Shown here: piece by piece, positions 4,830 through 32,289 of the stretch
How positions within the stretch are numbered: position 1 is the stretch's first letter
Layout of the letters: each line of letters opens with the position of its first letter
NCBI RefSeq assembly: GCF_000170755.1
Contig: NZ_ABCK01000010.1
Coordinates: forward strand, 1 to 64,000
Origin: Lentisphaera araneosa HTCC2155
Lineage (GTDB): Bacteria; Verrucomicrobiota; Lentisphaeria; Lentisphaerales; Lentisphaeraceae
Direction of reading: 5' to 3'
DNA length: 64,000 bases
Notes under the pieces: generated by a model
Told to the model about the DNA's origin: nothing
Databases searched by the model: none
What the model saw: the letters and a program-made list of their open reading frames with translations, nothing else
Position numbers and translations under genes: made by a program

Positions 4830-7127
4830 ATGCAAACACAAACTATTTTCCACCATCAGCCCGCCGGGGCTGATTGGAATCGTGCCTTTCCTGCTGGTAA
4901 CGGACGACTTGGCGCCATGGTCTTTGGCGATATCGACGAAGAGCGTATCGCCCTTAATGACGACACCCTCTACAACGGTGGTCAACGCGATCGCTTTAAC
5001 CCCGATTGCCTACCAAACTTAGACTGCATTCGCCAACTCATTTTTGACGGCAAGCTCAGCGAGGCCGAAGCCCTTACCCAAGAAGCCGTGACGGGTCTTC
5101 CCCCCATCATGCGCAACTACGAGCCCCTAGCTGATTTGCTGATCTCGCAAAAGTATTCTAAAGAAGCCTACAAACAGGTCGATCCCAATAATTTTGACCC
5201 CATGGATTTGGCCTACGGAAAAATTTATCAGGCGGCTTTTAGCGATTACCGCAAAAGTTTAGACCTAGAGAATTCCATTATCACTACCGAGTTTGAAGTA
5301 GCGGGAATCAAGTATAAACGCGAGCTCATCAGTTCATTTCCAGACGACCTCATTTACCTACGTTTAAGTGCTTCCGAAAAAAAATCCATCAATGTTAAAC
5401 TGCGTATTGAGCGCGGCGATGCCGCCATGTACTCAACTCGTCATTACGACAAAGTGAGTAGCCCAGTGGAAAATAGCTTATTCATCGAAGGCAGAACAGG
5501 TTCCAATGAAGGTATAGATTTTGTCGCTGGCCTACGTACACAAGTGCAAGGTGGCAGCTGTGAAAAAATTGGTGAGAGCCTAATTATCAAAGATGCCGAC
5601 GAAGTAGTGATTGCTATCTGTGGTCACACCTCAGTGCGACAAAATTCACCCATGACTTCACTCAAAAAGAGCCTAGAGAAAAACTTTGATTGGCAAGAAG
5701 TATATCTTCGTCACAGAGAGGATTACCAAAAGCTCTACAAGCGCGTAAAACTTGAAATTGCTCATCAAGATGATGAAAACCTCCCCACCGATGAACGTTT
5801 GCGCAAAGCGCAAAATAATCAAAGTGATGTAGTTCTGGATCAGCTCTACTTTAACTTTGGTCGCTACCTGCTTATTTCTTGTTCACGGCCGGGAAGTATG
5901 ACCGCTAATTTACAGGGCATTTGGAACGATAGCTTCTCTCCAAGCTGGGGCAGCAAATACACTATCAATATCAATATTCAGATGAATTACTGGCCCGCTG
6001 AAGTTTGCAATTTAAGCGAATGTCATGAACCACTTTTTGATATGCTAGAAAAACTCCATATCAATGGTCAGGAAACAGCCAAAAAAATGTACAATTGCCG
6101 TGGCTTTGTTTGTCACCACAATACTGATAATACTTACGATACCTACCCTACTGATCGCAATGTTACCGCCTCTTACTGGCCCATGGGTGGTGCTTGGTTA
6201 GCGCTGCATTTGTGGGAGCACTATAAATTCACCCAAGATCGTGATTTTTTAAGTAAATATTATCAAATAATTCACGATGCCGCCCTCTTCTTTGTGGACT
6301 TCCTTTGTGAGAATCCTAAGGGGCAATTAGTAACGTCCCCTTCAGTTTCACCGGAAAACACCTACTTGCTCCCCAATGGGGAATACGGCACCATCTGTGC
6401 TGGCCCCACTATGGACAACAGCATTATTCGTGAAATTATTCTCGCCACTCAAGAAGCTTCGAGGCTTCTCAATAAAACCTTAGACCAAGACTACGACGGC
6501 ATCCTCGCCAAACTTCCTCCTCTAGAAATTGGCAAACATGGACAAATCATGGAATGGAGTGAGGACTGGGACGAAATCGAACAAGGTCATCGTCACATCT
6601 CGCAACTCTTTGCTCTCCACCCAGGTAATGAAATCGATGTAGACAAAAACCCTGACTTTGCGCAAGCCGCAAAAATCACCCTAGATCGTCGCCTCGCCGA
6701 TGGCGGTGGCCACACGGGCTGGAGTCGCGCTTGGATCATCAATTTCTTCGCTCGTTTGCGCAATCCGCAAAAGGCCTATAAAAACTTCCACGCCCTGCAA
6801 AGTCATTCCACCTTACCCAATCTCTTTGACGACCACCCACCCTTCCAAATTGATGGCAACTTTGGTGGCACCGCTGCGGTAGCAGAAATGCTCCTGCAAT
6901 CCCACCAAGGACGCATTGACCTACTTCCATGCCTACCAAAGCAATGGGCCACAGGCCGAGTCTCTGGTCTAAGAGCTCGTGGTTCAGTTCAAGTCGATAT
7001 AGAATGGCAAAATGAAAAAGTAACTAGCTTCCAGCTCCTCTCAGATTTTGATCAAGAAGTCACTGTGACTTTCAATAGTCAAAAACAAGTTATTAAACTG
7101 CAAGCCAAAGAGCCTTATCAGTATTAA
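4830..7127 (+). CDS. GH95 alpha-L-fucosidase / alpha-L-galactosidase-type glycoside hydrolase
   Basis: Inverting exo-glycosidase of family GH95, expected to release terminal alpha-linked L-fucose (some members L-galactose). The whole 765-residue protein fits the family. The N-terminal motif [14 protein letters not shown] is followed by the catalytic (alpha/alpha)6 barrel. Visible landmarks are the NxN pair N380/N382 in [10 protein letters not shown]509 in PSVSPEN (candidate general acid) and D675 in FQIDGNFGG (family knowledge: activates the Asn base). No signal peptide is seen, so it probably acts in the cytoplasm on imported oligosaccharides, which fits its place directly behind the transporter genes. 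There is no clear ribosome site and only a four-base gap, suggesting translational coupling to the permease. Fucose versus galactose preference cannot be read here. Confidence 0.92.
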
Positions 7128-7151
7128 ATTATCAATCTCTTTCAGCGTGAT

Positions 7152-8096
7152 CTAAGAAAACAAAATCTGGGAGTTTTTTTTCAAAACTTCTAAGTAGACT
7201 TTCTTCATATCATCTGACATAAAAGACTTATTGATCAGCTTGTAACTATGAGCTATTGTTGAATTTAAATCTTCATAAGCTTGATCAATAAGTCTTGTTT
7301 GAAGCTTCATCCTCTCAGCCATCAGTTTAAAGTCATTTGATTTTAAGTTGTTCTTTTTGCCATTGATAGTTAAGGCACTCTGCTCAATATCTTTAAACTC
7401 TTTATCATAAAACCTATAGACTGCGGTCGTATTTAATAAATCATAGGCTGGCGATAGCTGAATCACGCCTTTTTTAGTAGTGATAATAGAATAATTCTTG
7501 AGGTGCATGTCTTCATTTCCAAAGACAAAATTAAACAGAAGTAATCTAAAAATCTTAAGCATCTCGACTTTAGGAAAACTGCAATAAGTCTCAATCAAAG
7601 TCATCAGTTTTTCTACGCTATAATTATACTTCTTTTTTCGATTCAGTTCTGCTAATTGAGAAAAGTCTTCTACATGCAATTTTTTATTCCTAGCAATGCG
7701 ATCAAAACGCTTGATGAAATAGGACAAGGAACCATCCGAACACCTAACTAAACCATTGAGTGGAGTTTCTATGCCATAATGATCTGCCATGTGCATCGTA
7801 AACGCTTCATTTTCAGGAAACTGAACCCACTCAGGATTTTGAGGTTTTACGATAAAAGTTCCGTATTTTTCTACTAAATCAAAACATTCATTTTTCAAAT
7901 TAAGCCGCACGCTATATTTCGGCTGTACCCCTTGAATAGAAATTTTATCTACTTGATTTCTACTGATAATAATCTGCTGTTCTTGTGTATAGTTTAAGGT
8001 ATTCAATGAACGAAGTTTAGGATTTAACTTCCTTAGAACTTTAGCTGTGTAGTCTGCTTGAGAAACATCTTCCATTGAGATTAAACAGGTCTTCAT
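7152..8096 (-). CDS. hipT: HipT-type serine/threonine kinase toxin (HipBST system)
   Basis: Kinase toxin of a three-component HipBST module: 314 residues and lacking the N-subdomain-1 found in full-length HipA. The Gly-rich loop reads KISIQGVQPK with Ser53 and Gln55 where E. coli HipT has two serines, so only one of the two autophosphorylation positions is present. Catalytic features are GNEDMHLKN (D196, N201) and SPAYD (D219). Known HipT targets tryptophanyl-tRNA synthetase in E. coli; the target here is unknown. Its ATG overlaps the stop of hipS by four bases (ATGA), so the two are translationally coupled. It converges with the GH95 gene 24 bases away. Confidence 0.88.
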   Translation of the reverse strand: MKTCLISMEDVSQADYTAKVLRKLNPKLRSLNTLNYTQEQQIIISRNQVDKISIQGVQPKYSVRLNLKNECFDLVEKYGTFIVKPQNPEWVQFPENEAFTMHMADHYGIETPLNGLVRCSDGSLSYFIKRFDRIARNKKLHVEDFSQLAELNRKKKYNYSVEKLMTLIETYCSFPKVEMLKIFRLLLFNFVFGNEDMHLKNYSIITTKKGVIQLSPAYDLLNTTAVYRFYDKEFKDIEQSALTINGKKNNLKSNDFKLMAERMKLQTRLIDQAYEDLNSTIAHSYKLINKSFMSDDMKKVYLEVLKKNSQILFS

Positions 8097-8404
8097 TCTA
8101 CCAATTCCCTAACTGAAATGGCTCCTACAAAATCATCCCCAATAGCAATAAGTTGGGACATGTAATCATCTTCATCAATCTTCATACTTTTTAATAGGTA
8201 CTGCAATTGTAAACCTTCCGGTAATAAACCATCAAAGAATGCAGGGAAATGATCAAACTCATAGATTAATGATGAAGCTGGTAGAGCCCTTGAAATAGGG
8301 TCTCCATTGTAGGCATCTAAATATTCTAAAGAATAATGATTTTGATCATATTCAATAAGTACTGCAGCTACCTCACCATGTAAGGAGACCTCAACTTTCC
8401 TCAT
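8093..8404 (-). CDS. hipS: HipS-like antitoxin (HipA N-subdomain 1 as a separate protein)
   Basis: A 103-residue protein equal to the N-terminal subdomain of HipA (couple_hipA family), with the typical FFDGLLPEG and GDDFVGAISV motifs. In HipBST systems this separate subunit, not HipB, neutralises the kinase; assignment as antitoxin is by that precedent. The gene overlaps hipB by 14 bases upstream and hipT by four bases downstream, in the order hipB-hipS-hipT as described in enterobacteria. An alternative reading, a frameshifted full-length HipA, is unlikely because the ATGA junction is clean and HipT keeps its own N-terminal extension. Confidence 0.85.
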   Translation of the reverse strand: MRKVEVSLHGEVAAVLIEYDQNHYSLEYLDAYNGDPISRALPASSLIYEFDHFPAFFDGLLPEGLQLQYLLKSMKIDEDDYMSQLIAIGDDFVGAISVRELVE

Positions 8405-8612
8405 CTAAATCACCTTTAACTGAGCTCACTAATTTTATTTGTATATTCAGTATATCTATTACCTTAAGTAAGTTATCAAATCGAACTGACTCTTTCCCCT
8501 TTTCTATATCAAAAATAGTCGTTTTCCCTACTCCAGATAGATTTGCTAGGTCTATCTGACTTAGGCCCGCTAACTTTCGATGTTCTTTGATTATTTTCGA
8601 TATCTCTTTCAT
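8391..8612 (-). CDS. hipB: HipB-like HTH repressor of the HipBST operon
   Basis: Small Xre-type helix-turn-helix protein (73 residues from the chosen start) with the core LAGLSQIDLANLSGVGKTTIFDIEKG. It should bind operators upstream and repress the operon, perhaps in complex with HipS and HipT. I chose the ATG at 8612, which has AAGGATGG about eight bases upstream; an in-frame ATG at 8621 and a GTG at 8630 are also open. The GTG would place the start inside the nearest operator-like repeat. The C-terminus runs 14 bases into hipS. Confidence 0.83.
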   Translation of the reverse strand: MKEISKIIKEHRKLAGLSQIDLANLSGVGKTTIFDIEKGKESVRFDNLLKVIDILNIQIKLVSSVKGDLDEES

Positions 8613-8625
8613 AAAATCCATCCTT

Positions 8626-8788
8626 ATCACTGTTATAGCAGTAAAATATTACTGACATAGATTACAGTCAAGTTAATATATATAAAAATATGAAATAATT
8701 ACTGCTACAGCAGTAATAAAATCCCTTAAGAGCTTAAGGAGAGAAGAATAAGTCCTTCTCAAACTTAAATTACCACCTAAGCAGTAAT
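8626..8788. promoter_or_regulatory. Three 20-bp operator-like palindromes upstream of hipBST
   Basis: Three related sites occur at 8626-8645, 8698-8717 and 8769-8788. The central one, ATTACTGCTACAGCAGTAAT, has two perfect 9-bp arms around a 2-bp spacer. The gene-proximal copy keeps most positions and the distal copy keeps the right arm AGCAGTAAT with a degenerate left arm. Start-to-start spacing is 72 and 71 bp, close to seven helical turns, so all three would face the same side of DNA. They are probably HipB binding sites; the proximal one lies just upstream of the hipB start. Confidence 0.65.
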
Positions 8789-9034
8789 TTTATGTAAAAA
8801 AATCACCCATATATCAAATATCTACTATAATTTGGTTAACACGACAATCATGTACGGTTAATTAAAAGGTTTATTTTTAAATATAAAAATTATATATATA
8901 AAGTTAAATATATCAATTTATCCTTTATATAAAATAACTTATTATAACTAGAAAATACTGAAGAAAGAATTCTTGCGAACAATACAAAATACCTATCACA
9001 CGATCTCAGAGTTTAGAAAAGTCACTCACAAGTA
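8789..9034. other. AT-rich intergenic stretch without a recognised gene
   Basis: This is the rest of the roughly 400-base gap between hipB and the GH1 gene. It is very AT-rich with TA runs (around 8876-8950). I see no open frame with a ribosome site, no RNA gene and no convincing terminator hairpin for the GH1 gene, which ends at 9035 on the minus strand and reads toward this stretch. Confidence 0.5.
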
Positions 9035-10420
9035 TTATACTTTCTCCACCACCCCATTCTGGGCGATGATGTCTGAATAAACATTAGCCGATAACTTAGG
9101 CGTCCTCTCTTGCGTTTCGTAATCTACATGACACATACCAAAGCGCTGGCCATAGCCGTGGGCCCACTCAAAATTATCCATCAAAGACCAGGCAAAATAT
9201 CCCCGTAAATCCACCCCCTCTTCTATCGCCTGACCAGATGCTTTTATATAGGATTTATAAAAATCTGCGCGCATAGTATCATTTAATGCAATTTCTTTAT
9301 TGGGCTCATCACAAGCACAGCCATTTTCAGTTATATAAATAATAGGATTACCATAACGTTCTTTTATCCAATGAAGCAAACGTCGACAACCATCAGGTAC
9401 GATATTCCACCCCATATGAGTTTGCTGCCAGCTGGGGTCAACTGATAAATGGACATTTTGGTCATCAATCATACCTCCATTACCAGCTAAATTAAGCTCT
9501 TCCAATTGACTTGCATTGGGTTCAGAAGCTAACATGGAACTGTAGTGATTAAGACCAAAAAAGTCGCTAGAACCCACCAGTTCTTTTTTCTCATCTTCAG
9601 TAAAATTCGGTAAACGATCACCTAAGACTTCCCTCATAACTTGGGGGTAATCACCCTTCCAAACAGGATCGGCAAACCAGGCTAAAAAGAATTCTAAACT
9701 GCGTTGTGCCGCCTCTCGATCTTGCGCTGAGTCCGTCAATGGATAACGGTAATCACAGTTATTCGTGATGCCAATGACTCCACCTTGATCTTGAAACTCT
9801 GTTTTATAAACTTTAACGGCTCTTGCGTGGGAAAGTAATAAGTTGTGCGCCGCAAGGTAAGGTTCAACTTTAGAGACGCGACCGGGGGCATGCTCGCCTA
9901 AACCATAACCCAAGACAGCTGAACACCAGGGTTCATTAAGGGTAATCCAATGCTTGACCCGATCACCAAAATTCTCGAAGCAAATTCTAGCATATTTCTC
10001 AAAATAACTAACTATATCTTTATTGAGCCAGCCATCGTGCTCTACCTGTAATGCTAGGGGTAGATCCCAGTGATACAGTGTTACCCATGGCTCGATATCA
10101 TGTTCTAATAGGCAATCAATGAGTTTGTTATAAAAGGCTATACCCCGGGGGTTAACCTCACCTTTACCATCAGCTTGAATACGTGGCCATGCAATAGAAA
10201 ATCTATACGCTTTTAAGCCTAAAGACTTCATCAATTTTACATCTGCTTCAAAACGATGATAATGATCACAAGCCACATCGCCTGTTTCATTATTGGCAAT
10301 CTTTCCAGGGGTGTAACACATCATATCCCATATAGACATCCCACGACCTGCTTCTTTAACCGCACCCTCTATTTGGTAGCTAGCAGTAGCTGAGCCCCAT
10401 ACAAAATCTTTTGGAAACAT
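9035..10420 (-). CDS. GH1 beta-glucosidase-type glycoside hydrolase
   Basis: Retaining family-1 glycosidase of 461 residues, normal for the family, with the N-terminal signature FVWGSATASYQIEGA. The acid/base Glu is E163 in TLNEPW and the nucleophile is E365 in ITENG. There is no signal peptide, so it should hydrolyse imported beta-linked disaccharides (glucosides, galactosides or fucosides; specificity not readable). The start at 10420 (ATG) is preferred over a TTG at 10426 because AGAGG lies seven bases upstream. It is transcribed away from the GH52 gene, with which it shares an intergenic promoter region. Confidence 0.93.
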   Translation of the reverse strand: MFPKDFVWGSATASYQIEGAVKEAGRGMSIWDMMCYTPGKIANNETGDVACDHYHRFEADVKLMKSLGLKAYRFSIAWPRIQADGKGEVNPRGIAFYNKLIDCLLEHDIEPWVTLYHWDLPLALQVEHDGWLNKDIVSYFEKYARICFENFGDRVKHWITLNEPWCSAVLGYGLGEHAPGRVSKVEPYLAAHNLLLSHARAVKVYKTEFQDQGGVIGITNNCDYRYPLTDSAQDREAAQRSLEFFLAWFADPVWKGDYPQVMREVLGDRLPNFTEDEKKELVGSSDFFGLNHYSSMLASEPNASQLEELNLAGNGGMIDDQNVHLSVDPSWQQTHMGWNIVPDGCRRLLHWIKERYGNPIIYITENGCACDEPNKEIALNDTMRADFYKSYIKASGQAIEEGVDLRGYFAWSLMDNFEWAHGYGQRFGMCHVDYETQERTPKLSANVYSDIIAQNGVVEKV

Positions 10421-10647
10421 AATCAAACCTCTTAATCATCATTTTTCTAGAAAAGTATTGTACAAAAATACATGATAACCTTATATAACTTTTTTGAAAC
10501 TAATTTAAATAGTTTATTTCAATAAATTTGCTGACACATCTACCTATTAAGAAATAGTGACAATATCACTCCCTTAAATATTAAAAATAACTTGAATCCA
10601 TTTAAAAATAACCTAATTTAACTTAATAAATGTTAGGAAATATAGAT
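10421..10647. promoter_or_regulatory. Divergent promoter region between GH1 and GH52 genes
   Basis: A 227-base AT-rich spacer that must hold the promoters of two divergent glycosidase genes. A loose inverted repeat is visible around 10492-10523 (TTGAAACTA facing TAGTTTATTTCAA), which could be a regulator site. I cannot assign -35/-10 boxes with confidence. No small gene is seen. Confidence 0.35.
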
Positions 10648-12741
10648 ATGACTCCAGAAAACCCCGACTTCCACGCCCAGCACTCCCCGATGGGGGCACA
10701 CAGCTCTTTCACATTAGGAATGCACCACGCCAATAGTGGTGCCGTATCAGAAAAAGGCTCCGTTGCTGAAGGCGCAACTCTCGTAGGCTACCGCACTGCA
10801 TCCGGTCAATACCATTATTTCCCTTTCTTCGAAAAGCTCGAAAGTGAAAAAGATCGCTATGTCAGCGATGAAAACGCCGAAATTCTTCCCGATGTCATTT
10901 TTTCTAAGGAAAATATTGAGCGCGAATACCTCTGGGCCACGGATAAGTTCTCGGCACCGGGGATCCAAATGGAAGTCATATCTCCCTTTGACAGCATCCC
11001 CGATCCCGCACAAGCAAGTGATGATGAAATGCGTTTTGCCACCTGCCCCGCCACCCTAGTGCGATTGACTTTCGACAATCAGAGTAGCGAAGACTGGCAA
11101 GGCTTCTTTGCCCTCAGTCCCGACACGAGATGGACAGCTCTAGACAGCGACAACAATCGACAAGTCATCGGCGGGGTGAGTCGTGATCAACTGGCTGTGG
11201 CGACTACAGATCAAGAAGCTAAATCCTTTATGGACTTCACCCATGATACGGCTTTAGATCCGGACCATAGTCGACCCCACTTCTTACTGGGGCAAACCTG
11301 TGGCCTAGAAATCACAGTCCCAGCTGGAGAACAAAAAGAATTAGTTCTCTGCATTGCCTATTATTTAGAAAACAAAGCCACTTTTAATCGTTCGAGCAAA
11401 TACTACTACACCAAGCTTTTTACCGACATCAAACATGTTATCAACTATGCCATGACGGAACAAGGTCGTTACTTTGCGCTGGCCGCAAAACGCGACGAAG
11501 AGCTGAGTTTGCGGACAGACCTAAACGATGAACAAAAATTTCTCATCGCCCATGCCACGAGAAGCTATTATGGCTCAACTGAATTTTTAATTGAATCAGA
11601 TAAGCCTCTATGGGTGGTCAATGAAGGTGAATACTTGATGATGAACACCTTTGACCTCACAATTGACATGCTTTTCTTCGAGCTTAAATTCAATCCTTGG
11701 ACGGTTAAAAACGTTCTCGAGAACTTTGTTTCCCACTACCGTTATTACGATGAGGTCTTTTCACCGGAGAATCCTGAAAAGCTCTACCCCGGTGGCGTAT
11801 CTTTTGCCCACGACATGGGGGTTGCTAATCAATTCAGTCCTGAACCCTACTCCAGTTATGAGTCTTCTGGCCTTGATCGCAAATGTTTCTCTTTCATGAC
11901 CTATGAACAACTCTGTAACTGGGTTTTAACTGCCGGGGTTTACCTTGGTCAAAATAAAGATACTGACTTCTTCACTCGTCACCGAGGTATCTTCCAAGAT
12001 TGTTTAACGAGCTTACTCAATCGCGATAATCCCGATCCCGCAAAACGCAATGGCCTGATGTCTTTTGAGAGTTCTATGACCAAGGGTGGCGGCGAAATAA
12101 CTACCTATGATTCACTAGATCACTCCCTCGGTCAATCGCGCAACAACATTTATTTAGCAGGCAAAGCTTGGGCATCCTACCTCATCATTCACGACCTCTT
12201 CAAAGGTCTTGATACAAAACTGAGCGAAGAAGCCTTCTCTGCTGCTCAGTTAACGGCGAAAGCCTTGTGTGCAGGTTATGACGAAGACCTAGGCTTTATC
12301 CCCGCTGTTTTAGAAAATGACAACAAGAGTGCTATCATTCCAGCCATCGAAGCCCTGGTTTACCCATGGGAGTTTGGTTCCAAAGAATACTGCTCCGAAG
12401 ACGGTCCTTTTGCTCAATACATCAAGGTGCTCAAACGCCACTTTAATAATATTCACAATACCGACGCCTGCCTTTACCCCGACGGAGCCTGGAAGCTATC
12501 CTCGACCGCGGACAACTCTTGGATGAGCAAAATCTCTATCTGCCAATACGTCGCTCGCGAAATCCTAAAGATTGACCTCAAAGATGCCTCGGCACAAGCT
12601 GATTTAGCCCACGCACGCTGGCAACGGGAAGGCGCCAAGTACCATGCCTGCTCAGATCAATTCACTTCCGGCCAAGCCATTGGCAGCCTCTACTACCCAA
12701 GAATAGTCAGTAACATCCTTTGGCTCAAAGAAACTTGTTAA
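10648..12741 (+). CDS. GH52 beta-xylosidase
   Basis: Retaining beta-xylosidase of family GH52. The 697-residue chain resembles the Geobacillus XynB2 type along its length, from the N-terminal AQHSPMGAHSSFTLG to the C-terminal YYPRIVSNILWL. The nucleophile region is VVNEGEY (E326/E328) and the acid/base region is TYDSLDHSLGQ (D488/D491). There is no signal peptide; it should release xylose from short xylo-oligosaccharides in the cytoplasm. I chose ATG 10648, with TTAGGA upstream, over ATG 10630, because it leaves the short lead-in seen in the family. It is followed by uxaC on the same strand after 171 bases with no convincing gene; together they suggest glucuronoxylan-like substrates. Confidence 0.92.
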   Translation: MTPENPDFHAQHSPMGAHSSFTLGMHHANSGAVSEKGSVAEGATLVGYRTASGQYHYFPFFEKLESEKDRYVSDENAEILPDVIFSKENIEREYLWATDKFSAPGIQMEVISPFDSIPDPAQASDDEMRFATCPATLVRLTFDNQSSEDWQGFFALSPDTRWTALDSDNNRQVIGGVSRDQLAVATTDQEAKSFMDFTHDTALDPDHSRPHFLLGQTCGLEITVPAGEQKELVLCIAYYLENKATFNRSSKYYYTKLFTDIKHVINYAMTEQGRYFALAAKRDEELSLRTDLNDEQKFLIAHATRSYYGSTEFLIESDKPLWVVNEGEYLMMNTFDLTIDMLFFELKFNPWTVKNVLENFVSHYRYYDEVFSPENPEKLYPGGVSFAHDMGVANQFSPEPYSSYESSGLDRKCFSFMTYEQLCNWVLTAGVYLGQNKDTDFFTRHRGIFQDCLTSLLNRDNPDPAKRNGLMSFESSMTKGGGEITTYDSLDHSLGQSRNNIYLAGKAWASYLIIHDLFKGLDTKLSEEAFSAAQLTAKALCAGYDEDLGFIPAVLENDNKSAIIPAIEALVYPWEFGSKEYCSEDGPFAQYIKVLKRHFNNIHNTDACLYPDGAWKLSSTADNSWMSKISICQYVAREILKIDLKDASAQADLAHARWQREGAKYHACSDQFTSGQAIGSLYYPRIVSNILWLKETC

Positions 12742-12912
12742 TCATAAAAAATAATCAAGTTGTATTACGTAAAGAACTTCACTTAAAGAATCTTATTAAA
12801 AATTTGAAAGTGCTTTCTCTGAGCCAAAGAAACAAATTTTACAATGAGCATAAAAAACAAATTGTAAGCCCTTTAGAAATAGTTAAAATAGACAAATTTT
12901 AGGAATCAGCAC

Positions 12913-14316
12913 ATGAACTTTATTCACGACGACTTCGTACTTGAAAATCAGTACGCCAAAGACCTTTATCATCAGTTTTCAAAAGATCAGCCCATCATTG
13001 ACTACCACTGTCATTTGATCCCCCAGGAAATTGCCGAAGATAGGCGCTGGGAAAACATCACTCAAATCTGGCTTTATGGCGATCATTACAAATGGCGCGC
13101 CATGCGCAGCAATGGCGTGGATGAACGCTTTTGCACTGGAGAGTCTTCCGATTGGGAAAAATTTAAGGCCTTTGCCGACTGCATGCCTAAACTCCTGCGT
13201 AACCCACTCTACCATTGGACGCAACTGGAGCTCAAACGTTACTTCAATATCGATAAGCTTCTAGGACCTGATACAGCCGAGGAAATTTGGAACGAGGCCA
13301 ACAAAGTTGTTCAAGCAGATGACTTTTCAGCTCGTCAACTGATGGTTAAGAGTAAGGTAAAACTCGTCTGCACAACAGATGATCCCATCGACGATTTGCG
13401 TGGGCACAAACAAATTGCTGCCGATCAATTCCAAGTAAAAGTTCTCCCCACCTGGCGTCCTGACAAAGCCATGGCCGTGGATCAAAGCCAAGTCTTTACT
13501 GAATGGTATGCCCAACTCCAAGAGATCACCGATTTCCAAATCAATAGTTTTGACGATTACCTCAAAGCTTTAAAAATCCGCCAAGACTACTTTCATGAAA
13601 ATGGCTGCCGCCTAAGTGACCACGGCATTAATGAATTCTACGCTAGCGAATACAGCGATGCGGACATCGCAAAAATCTTTGATAAAGCTCGTTCTGGTGA
13701 AAAAGTTAGTGAACGGGAAGACCTGCAATTCAAATCTTGCATGATGTATCATTTTGGCCTGTGGAATCACGAAAAAGGCTGGGTACAGCAATTTCATTAT
13801 GGCGCCATCCGCAACAACAATACCAGAATGTATAATCAACTTGGGCCCGACACGGGTTTTGATTCCATTGGTTCGCCCAATACGGCATTAGCTATGAGTC
13901 GCTACTTTGACCGCCTAGATTCCAGTGATCAACTGGCAAAATCCATCATCTACAACCTCAACCCCGGCGACAACCATGTGATTGGTACTATGATTGGCAA
14001 TTTCCAAGATGGCTCAGCTGCGGGCAAAATGCAGTTCGGTTCAGGCTGGTGGTTCTTGGATCAAAAAGATGGCATGGAAAATCAAATCGAAGCTCTCTCT
14101 CAACTTGGCTCCCTATCACAATTTGTGGGAATGCTCACCGACAGCCGCTCATTCTTGAGCTACACTCGCCACGAGTACTTCCGCCGCATCCTGTGTAATA
14201 TTCTTGGTAAAGACATGGAAAAAGGCCTAGTCCCAGCCGACCTCAACTTAGTTGGCCCCATGATTGCCGATATCTCCTACAACAACGCCGCCAATTACTT
14301 CGATTTTAATCTTTAA
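12913..14316 (+). CDS. uxaC: Uronate (glucuronate/galacturonate) isomerase
   Basis: Converts D-glucuronate to D-fructuronate and D-galacturonate to D-tagaturonate, the first step of hexuronate catabolism. The 467-residue protein begins with the family N-terminus, including the metal-site motif DYHCHL (H32, H34), and shows the conserved DDPIDDLRGH and GCRLSDHGI segments. The next pathway enzymes are not in the window. An AGGAATCAGCAC leader precedes the ATG. The last 60 or so bases of this gene recur at 30567-30632, next to the second copy of the downstream block, showing that its 3' end took part in the duplication. Confidence 0.95.
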   Translation: MNFIHDDFVLENQYAKDLYHQFSKDQPIIDYHCHLIPQEIAEDRRWENITQIWLYGDHYKWRAMRSNGVDERFCTGESSDWEKFKAFADCMPKLLRNPLYHWTQLELKRYFNIDKLLGPDTAEEIWNEANKVVQADDFSARQLMVKSKVKLVCTTDDPIDDLRGHKQIAADQFQVKVLPTWRPDKAMAVDQSQVFTEWYAQLQEITDFQINSFDDYLKALKIRQDYFHENGCRLSDHGINEFYASEYSDADIAKIFDKARSGEKVSEREDLQFKSCMMYHFGLWNHEKGWVQQFHYGAIRNNNTRMYNQLGPDTGFDSIGSPNTALAMSRYFDRLDSSDQLAKSIIYNLNPGDNHVIGTMIGNFQDGSAAGKMQFGSGWWFLDQKDGMENQIEALSQLGSLSQFVGMLTDSRSFLSYTRHEYFRRILCNILGKDMEKGLVPADLNLVGPMIADISYNNAANYFDFNL

Positions 14317-30686: not shown

Positions 30687-32009
30687 CTATTTTTTCTTAT
30701 TTAACTTATTCAAGCGATCAATAAGAACTCCTTGAAAGTCTTTTTTGTCATCATTACTGAGTAAACTCTTTTCAATCATTTCCAAAATAACATGGTGACC
30801 TTTATTGAGTTTAGATAAATGGCTATCTAAAAGTTTAGTGGACACACCCGCTAGCTCGTACAAATAAGCAAATGTCTGATATGAGCTATGACCATCTCTT
30901 AGATAAATTTCTGATTCATAATCCCTGAAAAAATCTATGGCCATTTCATAGCTATGTCCTGGCATATTTCTAAGTAAACTTTCTGTATTGATGCAATCAT
31001 ACAATGGGCTTAGTCTTTTATATGTCGAATTTTTTTGAATATCTATTAGGGCAATATTCTTTAAATGAAAATCATCATTACCTATATAAAATTGAATGAG
31101 CAAAGCATGTAAAAATTCAACGACTGAAAAAGTATTGCTATGTTTTTGAATAGCTGTACAAACTTCTTCATAAGTCCCATCAAATTGATCTAAGTTTAGT
31201 ATTTGTGATAAATCTTCAAAGTGGTGTTTTTTATTTCCTCTATCAAAGCGTTTGGTCAAATAAGCCAAATTTCCATCTTGTAGTTTAATCAAAGCACATT
31301 CAGCAAGCTTTCCCTTCAAAAGTTTTTCTGAAATTTTCATGCTTAGGTGTTCATAGATTGCTGATTGCTTTAAATCAGCAATGGCTGGTTTCAAAATAAA
31401 TTGGCTACCAACTGCTTGTGGTTTCAACATTCCTTCTTCTAATACAACACCAATTTTTACTTGCATACCAGACATCGAAGCTCTTCTTACATCAGCATAA
31501 ACTCGTAAATCAAAATCGCTTCTACTTAAAGGAACCACTGGTTCTTGTGTACTTCCGAAAAATTTCTTTAAACATTTTAAATGATAATCTGAATCACATG
31601 TCTCGAGACAGATCAGGCACATCCCTTCTCCATGAGAAATTTTATTCTTTACTGAATAATCATTTCTCAGTAAGGGAGTCATTTTTTCCACAGTTTTGAG
31701 TTCTACTGCACCAGGTAAATCTAAGCCATTCACTGCAAGCAAAGTAAAGGTATCTTTCGGATCAATACGATCTAAATTAAGTAGAGTCTTTTTATACCAC
31801 CCTTGAGGCTCTAAACCTCTAAAAAAACTATGTAAATGCTCGGATAAAAATTCCTCGTTTCTCAATGGTAAAGTACAGGATATGGGTAAGGCATATTGAT
31901 CTTGCAAATAATCACTTGCATAACGAAAAGAAAAACTAGCCTGATTACGTTCTAAATAACCCGCTTTCTTACCATCGTAATAAACGTCTACTCGATCTAT
32001 CTTATTCAT
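30687..32009 (-). CDS. hipA: HipA-type serine/threonine kinase toxin with Cys-rich insert
   Basis: Full-length HipA-like kinase toxin, 440 residues. The N-subdomain-1 covers about 1-110 (FFRGLEPQG, LAVNGLDLPGAV). A short Cys/His insert, CLICLETCDSDYHLKC (C131, C134, H143, C146), could bind zinc and recalls the Cys-rich segment seen in some Bacteroidota HipA-like proteins. The Gly-rich loop SMSGMQVK keeps both serines (S178, S180). Catalytic residues are GNDDFHLKN (D313, N318) and SPLYD (D338). It probably phosphorylates a cellular target such as an aminoacyl-tRNA synthetase; the target is unknown. It overlaps hipB by eight bases, the usual antitoxin-toxin coupling. Confidence 0.9.
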   Translation of the reverse strand: MNKIDRVDVYYDGKKAGYLERNQASFSFRYASDYLQDQYALPISCTLPLRNEEFLSEHLHSFFRGLEPQGWYKKTLLNLDRIDPKDTFTLLAVNGLDLPGAVELKTVEKMTPLLRNDYSVKNKISHGEGMCLICLETCDSDYHLKCLKKFFGSTQEPVVPLSRSDFDLRVYADVRRASMSGMQVKIGVVLEEGMLKPQAVGSQFILKPAIADLKQSAIYEHLSMKISEKLLKGKLAECALIKLQDGNLAYLTKRFDRGNKKHHFEDLSQILNLDQFDGTYEEVCTAIQKHSNTFSVVEFLHALLIQFYIGNDDFHLKNIALIDIQKNSTYKRLSPLYDCINTESLLRNMPGHSYEMAIDFFRDYESEIYLRDGHSSYQTFAYLYELAGVSTKLLDSHLSKLNKGHHVILEMIEKSLLSNDDKKDFQGVLIDRLNKLNKKK

Positions 32010-32289
32010 TAAAGAAGACCTTTAAACCTACCGCATGAGTAACTTTTAAAAAATTCTCTAACTTGACAGTTAAATGTCCAGCCTCAATGGCGGCAATAAC
32101 ATTTTTACTAAGACCTAAAGCTAAAGCAAAATCGTTCTGAGTAATCCCACGATCTTTTCTAAATCCCTTAATAAAAGGACCTACTTGTTCCAACTCAATA
32201 GCTTCTTCACGTTTCTTTCTTTCGTGCAATTCGAGGACTAAAGATTTGAAGGCATCTATATCTTGCAATACTTTTTGAATATCTTTCAT
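32002..32289 (-). CDS. hipB: HipB-type HTH antitoxin
   Basis: A 95-residue protein with an N-terminal helical lead-in (about 1-35, Glu/Lys-rich) and an Xre helix-turn-helix (ITQNDFALALGLSKNVIAAIEAG). It should bind and repress its promoter and hold HipA inactive. It is unrelated in detail to the hipB at 8391-8612. It lies directly downstream of the copy B hydrolase on the same strand. Confidence 0.85.
   Translation of the reverse strand: MKDIQKVLQDIDAFKSLVLELHERKKREEAIELEQVGPFIKGFRKDRGITQNDFALALGLSKNVIAAIEAGHLTVKLENFLKVTHAVGLKVFFNE

Follow-up and report, generated by a model that had tools for sequence, protein, structure and literature searches.

The closest described counterpart of the operon analysed here is hipBST of Legionella pneumophila, in which HipB binds every one of three operators, set apart by 53-bp gaps (18 + 53 = 71), in gel-shift assays (PMC10653801). 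As in the present locus, they are palindrome-derived 18-nt sites, 71 bp apart from start to start; O2 and O3 are asymmetric, and O1 is closest to hipB and most conserved (PMC10653801). HipB bound to these operators is supershifted by HipT, and by HipT together with HipS, while HipB alone gives gel-shift patterns suggestive of partly occupied complexes, which the authors contrast with the cooperative HipB of E. coli (PMC10653801). The hipBA system of E. coli K-12 has four TATCC-N8-GGATA operators, which HipB bends by ~70 degrees (PMC3920265), and the inter-operator distances of hipBST exceed those of hipBA, according to the Legionella authors (PMC10653801). The HipB of E. coli O127 hipBST represses on its own only at high level and at leaky level together with HipT; HipT has basic residues close to the DNA backbone, and HipBST forms a B2S2T2 hexamer (PMC10627512). 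Among unrelated proteins, the lac repressor uses phase-dependent paired sites, looping out 6-8 turns of DNA in vivo (PMC1762422, PMC5081198), and NrdR boxes accept spacings one turn apart, 15-17 and 26 +/- 1 bp (PMC12051234). No exact optimal lac loop length was found in the literature search.

The window, namely the whole 64,000-nucleotide stretch of Lentisphaera araneosa HTCC2155 that was analysed (positions 1 to 64,000 of contig NZ_ABCK01000010.1), carries on its minus strand intact hipB, hipS and hipT genes with overlapping ends (8612-7152), whose products have the Pfam domains HTH_3, Couple_hipA and HipA_C, respectively (Table 1). Their best PDB matches are HipB(Lp), HipS(Lp) and HipT(Lp) of L. 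pneumophila; for HipS and HipT the E. coli O127 chains rank far behind. The kinase motifs of HipT, aligned to HipT(Lp), are intact (SIQGVQPKYS of the Gly-rich loop, GNEDMHLKN and SPAYDLLNT). Gene order, domains, closest relatives and kinase motifs thus assign the operon, as a prediction, to the HipBST toxin-antitoxin systems. It differs from the Legionella system in coming from another phylum, with nearest relatives of Lentisphaera type. The likeness to E. coli O127 hipBST lies in the order hipB-hipS-hipT and in a HipB that represses there, better with HipT (PMC6581861, PMC10627512), but the O127 HipT is much more distant from that of the window (E 2e-21). The hipB start codon ATG 8612 is preceded at 8 nt by the Shine-Dalgarno sequence AAGGA (8621-8625). 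An in-frame ATG at 8621 is an alternative start; with ATG 8612, the distance from O1 to the start codon about equals that in two relatives described below (L025 and L026), for which the first ATG was used.

Table 1. Positions of the hipBST genes, the predicted operators and the candidate promoter elements in the window.
Feature	Positions	Strand	Description	Evidence
hipT	7152..8096	-	HipA-like Ser/Thr kinase toxin, 314 aa	PF07804 E 3e-46; HipT(Lp) 8ezr E 2e-79
hipS	8093..8404	-	antitoxin subunit, HipA N-terminal domain, 103 aa	PF13657 E 6e-19; HipS(Lp) 7vkb_B E 2e-26
hipB	8391..8612	-	Cro/C1-type HTH regulator, 73 aa, ATG 8612	PF01381 E 7e-12; HipB(Lp) 8ezt E 3e-20
O1	8627..8644	-	TTACTGCTATAACAGTGA, reading towards hipB	repeat search; profile score 23 bits
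Extended -10-like element	8632..8640	-	TGCTATAAC, inside O1; probable hipBST promoter	read from sequence
Alternative sigma-70-like promoter	8643..8671	-	TTGACT-17-TATTTT; -10 overlaps O1 edge	9/12 matches
Spacer O2-O1	8645..8698	-	54 bp, AT-rich	
O2	8699..8716	-	TTACTGCTGTAGCAGTAA; palindrome arms perfect	26 bits
Spacer O3-O2	8717..8769	-	53 bp, the Legionella gap length	PMC10653801
O3	8770..8787	-	TTACTGCTTAGGTGGTAA; second arm degenerate	18 bits

Three evenly spaced palindromes upstream of hipBST had been reported in the initial annotation, and a repeat search of the window recovered them de novo (8625-8645, 8697-8717 and 8768-8788, in steps of 72 and 71 bp). Their 18-bp cores are inverted repeats of the TTACTG-N6-CAGTAA type on the minus strand, 5' of the operon, and start at -32 (O1), -104 (O2) and -175 (O3) relative to ATG 8612. 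The last base of O1, which adjoins hipB, lies 14 nt upstream of the A of this codon. The arms proposed as common to the three sites are shared in general, with the qualification that the hipB-proximal right arm is AGCAGTAAA rather than AGCAGTAAT and that the left arms are imperfect in two of the three sites (one mismatch in O1, two in O3). The Legionella loci fetched for comparison carry the same motif, and O1 of the window is a single base off the O1 of many of them (TTACTGCTATAACAGTAA in L055, L083, L086 and others). The hipBA operator TATCC-N8-GGATA was also considered and rejected as a description of the window sites. Likeness to K-12 hipBA is found in the presence of several palindromic operators, a Cro-like HipB, DNA bending and a toxin acting as co-repressor; the motif, number and arrangement of sites differ, and the hipBA HipB doubles as antitoxin.

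The motif alone is not rare: TTACTGNNNNNNCAGTAA with up to 2 mismatches has 5 matches in the 64 kb against 3.0 +/- 1.6 expected, of which three are O1-O3, in register. With a profile trained on relatives, O1-O3 score 18-26 bits; above 5 bits, the background in shuffled upstream sequence is 0.03 sites per 320 bp. The short core ACTGCTNNAGCAGT is not enriched in the genome when one mismatch is allowed (22 matches versus 28 for the reversed control), and for this reason only the longer motif was used for the genome search. Across the 6.02-Mb genome as a whole, TTACYGN6CRGTAA has 5 matches, 4 of them within two hipBST promoters, that of the window and that of a paralogous operon on another contig (G000:C7:305604-307246, L025; HipT 68% identical). 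This paralogue has a separate set of O1-O3, spaced 72/72 bp, and its HipB recognition helix is near-identical to that of the window HipB (GVGKTTIFDIEKGKE), so the two operons may cross-regulate each other. A genome of the same family (G005, L026) also has operators at 72/72 bp. The corresponding hipT match (contig 83, 5-920) is interrupted by stop codons and spread over several reading frames, so this copy seems to be defective, even with its three operators well preserved.

Relatives were collected by a HipT scan of bacterial and archaeal genomes, from which the best 80 close matches were taken, together with two targeted sets; searches of plasmids and phages gained little. The profile scan covered 82 upstream regions from many phyla, many of them from metagenome bins and with kinship between loci partly controlled. 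At least two sites were found in 75 of the 82 and three in 63, so that some related loci have two sites only. The initial annotation had named conservation in relatives beforehand as a point on which its proposal could fail, and the proposal survived this comparison. No site above 13 bits was obtained with the profile at HipA-type and other distant Hip loci (n = 26). A fourth in-register site was seen in 1 of 62 loci, and one inside hipB in none of 75; three operators are therefore the rule.

The spacing between sites falls into two classes. Taking all gaps, 106 measure 69-73 bp, 31 measure 60-62 bp, one measures 68 bp and none 63-67 bp. Between O1 and O2, 19 gaps are of 60-62 bp, 1 of 68 bp and 55 of 70-73 bp; between O2 and O3, the figures are 12 of 60-62 bp, 1 of 69 bp and 50 of 70-73 bp. 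The lone 68-bp gap (L052) involves a weak proximal site beside three good ones at 72/71 bp, and the 69-bp gap (L109) depends on a weak O3. The class means, 71.30 (sd 0.72) and 61.32 bp (sd 0.59), are one helical turn apart at 10.2 bp per turn, i.e., seven and six turns. The "seven helical turns" of the initial annotation accordingly hold at ~10.2 bp per turn (71.3/7), but at 10.5 bp per turn the distance would be 6.8 turns. A quick HipT tree suggests about six independent one-turn switches. The short class occupies both gaps in a large Bacteroidales-type clade and arose separately in L076 and in L105; it is limited to O1-O2 in the clade of L050, L054, L039 and L093, and to O2-O3 in L146. Spacings confined to 60-62 and 69-73 bp, changing independently by single turns, back the earlier claim that the sites are placed on one face of the helix.

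The operator sequence has been re-coded at least twice, in step with the recognition helix of HipB. Three Desulfobacterota-type loci, whose helix 3 reads GKN instead of GKT, have TTCCC-N8-GGGAA sites at 70-72 bp steps, and two alphaproteobacterial loci with helix 3 SRTA have TGATTTCT-N2-AGAAATCA-like sites at 71 bp. Both classes were replicated in further relatives fetched on purpose. The first pass for the TTCCC and SRTA sites used a spacing range of 55-80 bp, which was widened for TTCCC only: with any spacing of 40-110 bp allowed, the spacing in the GKN class still came out at 70-73 bp for 17 of the 19 loci, three of which are repeat records; of 950 shuffles, 4 yielded a triple of any kind. 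Among the SRTA loci, L145 is spaced at 72/71 bp, and L146 combines a gap of 61 with one of 72 bp. Helix 3 and operator class agree in 102 of 102 loci (GK[TSA] with TTACTG, 75/75; GKN with TTCCC, 21/21; SRTA with TGATT, 6/6); for the newly fetched loci the class was assigned from helix 3 first and the operators checked afterwards, some single SRTA sites being weak. In an alignment to the 434 repressor, the T/N position of helix 3 presumably corresponds to a base-contacting residue, which makes sense of the switch. Because the re-coded operators track helix 3 and keep ~71 bp, as do all three operator classes, HipB is almost certainly the protein that reads the sites, and spacing is conserved separately from operator sequence. 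That the palindromes are the HipB operators of hipBST, as first proposed, is strongly supported by cross-phylum conservation, by co-variation with helix 3 and by the Legionella gel shifts (PMC10653801); the window HipB itself would then bind O1-O3.

The DNA between the operators is also patterned. In a dereplicated set of 22 representatives below 60% HipT identity (34 gaps, aligned outward from the operator edges), GC minima lie at 1-3, 11-14 and 20-23 bp from the edge and maxima near 7, 16-17 and 25-26 bp. The amplitude of this GC wave at 10.2 bp is 0.144, versus 0.020 +/- 0.010 when gaps are rotated (maximum 0.069 in 5000). Rotation and shuffle nulls remove relatedness in part, and the effect stayed after dereplication. 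Note that no single exact period could be fitted stably (the long class gives 9.2, the short one 10.25), and peak positions alone are relied on. Arrays of the 61-bp class show the wave as well, as do those with TTCCC operators, and phasing of AT tracts to the dyads extends over three operator classes. Tested per locus, 33 of 46 arrays reach p<0.05 versus 6 of 45 upstream control stretches; taken on its own, the window is marginal (p 0.037), and no AT phasing is detected in the L025 paralogue (p 0.75). Measured from the dyad of the operator, AT content peaks at ~20.7 and 30 bp; AT-rich minor grooves would therefore face the minor-groove side of the dyad, occupied by HipB, and the inter-operator DNA is probably curved towards the protein side.

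The probable promoter appears to overlap O1 (Table 1). The core TATAA[CT] is found within O1 in the direction of hipB in 24 of 75 loci versus 2 in reverse, and within O3 without direction bias (4 versus 5). Promoter-like matches in the region are no commoner than chance. With either candidate promoter, HipB on O1 would block initiation; the Legionella O1 overlaps a predicted promoter too (PMC10653801).

O1-O3 are almost certainly operators read by HipB, and we consider it likely that HipB, with HipT and HipS, autorepresses the operon in a phased and curved complex of three sites. A dimer of the operon's own HipB would sit on O1, over the promoter and probably holding its -10, and keep RNA polymerase out. 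O2 and O3, each ~71-72 bp (seven turns of ~10.2 bp) further upstream, would add two further dimers on the same helical face, and the intervening DNA would be curved towards the HipB face by AT-rich minor grooves that keep phase with the operator dyads. By forming a short loop or wrap, HipB2-HipT2-HipS2 complexes on neighbouring operators would most likely come together as a single, strongly repressing complex, which would weaken when HipB or HipST falls. The predicted phased assembly of the three sites is well supported by the comparison of relatives; looping, wrapping and cooperativity are extrapolated from it, and the assembly may take the form of a loop, a wrap or a stack. Cooperativity, if any, more likely needs HipT/HipS or DNA shape, and HipT/HipS are the likely bridge since HipB alone seemed non-cooperative in Legionella. 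A bolder and more tentative version, which may be true but which we would not favour, is that the hipBST promoters of this clade form a small wrapped particle, in which ~160 bp would bend round three HipB-HipT-HipS complexes at intervals of exactly seven (or six) turns. It would account for AT-rich minor grooves facing HipB every 10 bp and for geometry, not operator sequence, being conserved across phyla; the promoter would then be one three-site switch and not a set of separate repressor sites. The array would share phase-dependent sites with the lac and NrdR systems, and differs from them in its unrelated proteins and in having three sites versus two.

Alternatively, the three operators might act independently, O1 repressing and O2 and O3 raising the local HipB concentration or titrating HipB, with no contact between them and a spacing that is inherited and not selected. 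The Legionella data lend themselves to this explanation, in that HipB alone seems to leave the operators at intermediate occupancy in gel shifts, and a 50-bp fragment with any one of the operators is bound by itself (PMC10653801); moreover, bound sites would be 240 A apart on straight DNA and would not touch. Independent sites are nonetheless unlikely: whole-turn spacing is kept while operators and flanks change, shifts occur in one-turn steps, and the phasing between AT tracts and dyads recurs in three operator classes.

It is highly improbable that the sites are read by another regulator, such as a nucleoid protein, which the AT-rich spacers could attract, or a regulator of the adjoining sugar-metabolism genes: the array accompanies hipBST across phyla and gene neighbourhoods, was not found elsewhere in the genome nor at HipA-type and other Hip loci, and its sites change together with HipB helix 3. 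Least probable of all is that the palindromes are RNA hairpins (terminators or processing sites) or chance or mobile repeats. A terminator search does pick up O2 as a weak stem on the minus strand, and further small inverted repeats lie between O2 and O3, but the sites are at or upstream of the probable promoter, and two or three of them stand in DNA-turn register nearly always, in unrelated contexts, without dispersal in the genome.

Under the favoured phased assembly, a description made for Legionella (three operators with equal gaps) becomes a rule of general validity in a widespread toxin-antitoxin family. The kind of array is already known from the O1-O3 of Legionella hipBST; its generality and geometry are new. 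The published account (PMC10653801), which deals with Legionella only, does not include turn-quantised spacing, re-coded operators, helix-3 co-variation or phased AT tracts. The geometry would be under selection, quantised in helical turns and outlasting changes of operator sequence. The three operator classes would provide a natural specificity code for HipB, and joint promoter control by HipB, HipS and HipT becomes directly testable. The array is not required for HipBST autoregulation in general, because none was detected upstream of E. coli O127 hipBST, either by a repeat search or by a search for palindrome pairs, in which the best pair stayed in the range of shuffled sequence.

Some features of the neighbourhood complete the description of the locus. 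The small inverted repeats between O2 and O3 (8724-8760, minus strand; GAGAAG..CTTCTC and CCTTAAGCTCTTAAGG) are possibly the end of an upstream glycosidase transcript. A two-gene Hip locus at 30687-32289 on the minus strand (L029) codes for a full-length HipA-like protein of 440 aa and an HTH protein of 95 aa; a search of its surroundings gave no TTACTG-type operators, and it serves as an internal negative control. A plasmid-borne member of the HipT family (NZ_LR134418.1, 258280-259206) is publicly annotated as a Dot/Icm effector. Translocation was not above control (PMC10653801), and the wide distribution of close homologues outside Legionella argues against such a general role. The genes around hipBST (4830-14316), named from ORF reading, putatively serve sugar degradation and include a family-95-like fucosidase, a beta-glucosidase, a phosphorylase-like and a uronate isomerase-like gene. 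Two genomes of the same genus have the beta-glucosidase and lack a close HipT, so hipBST looks accessory.
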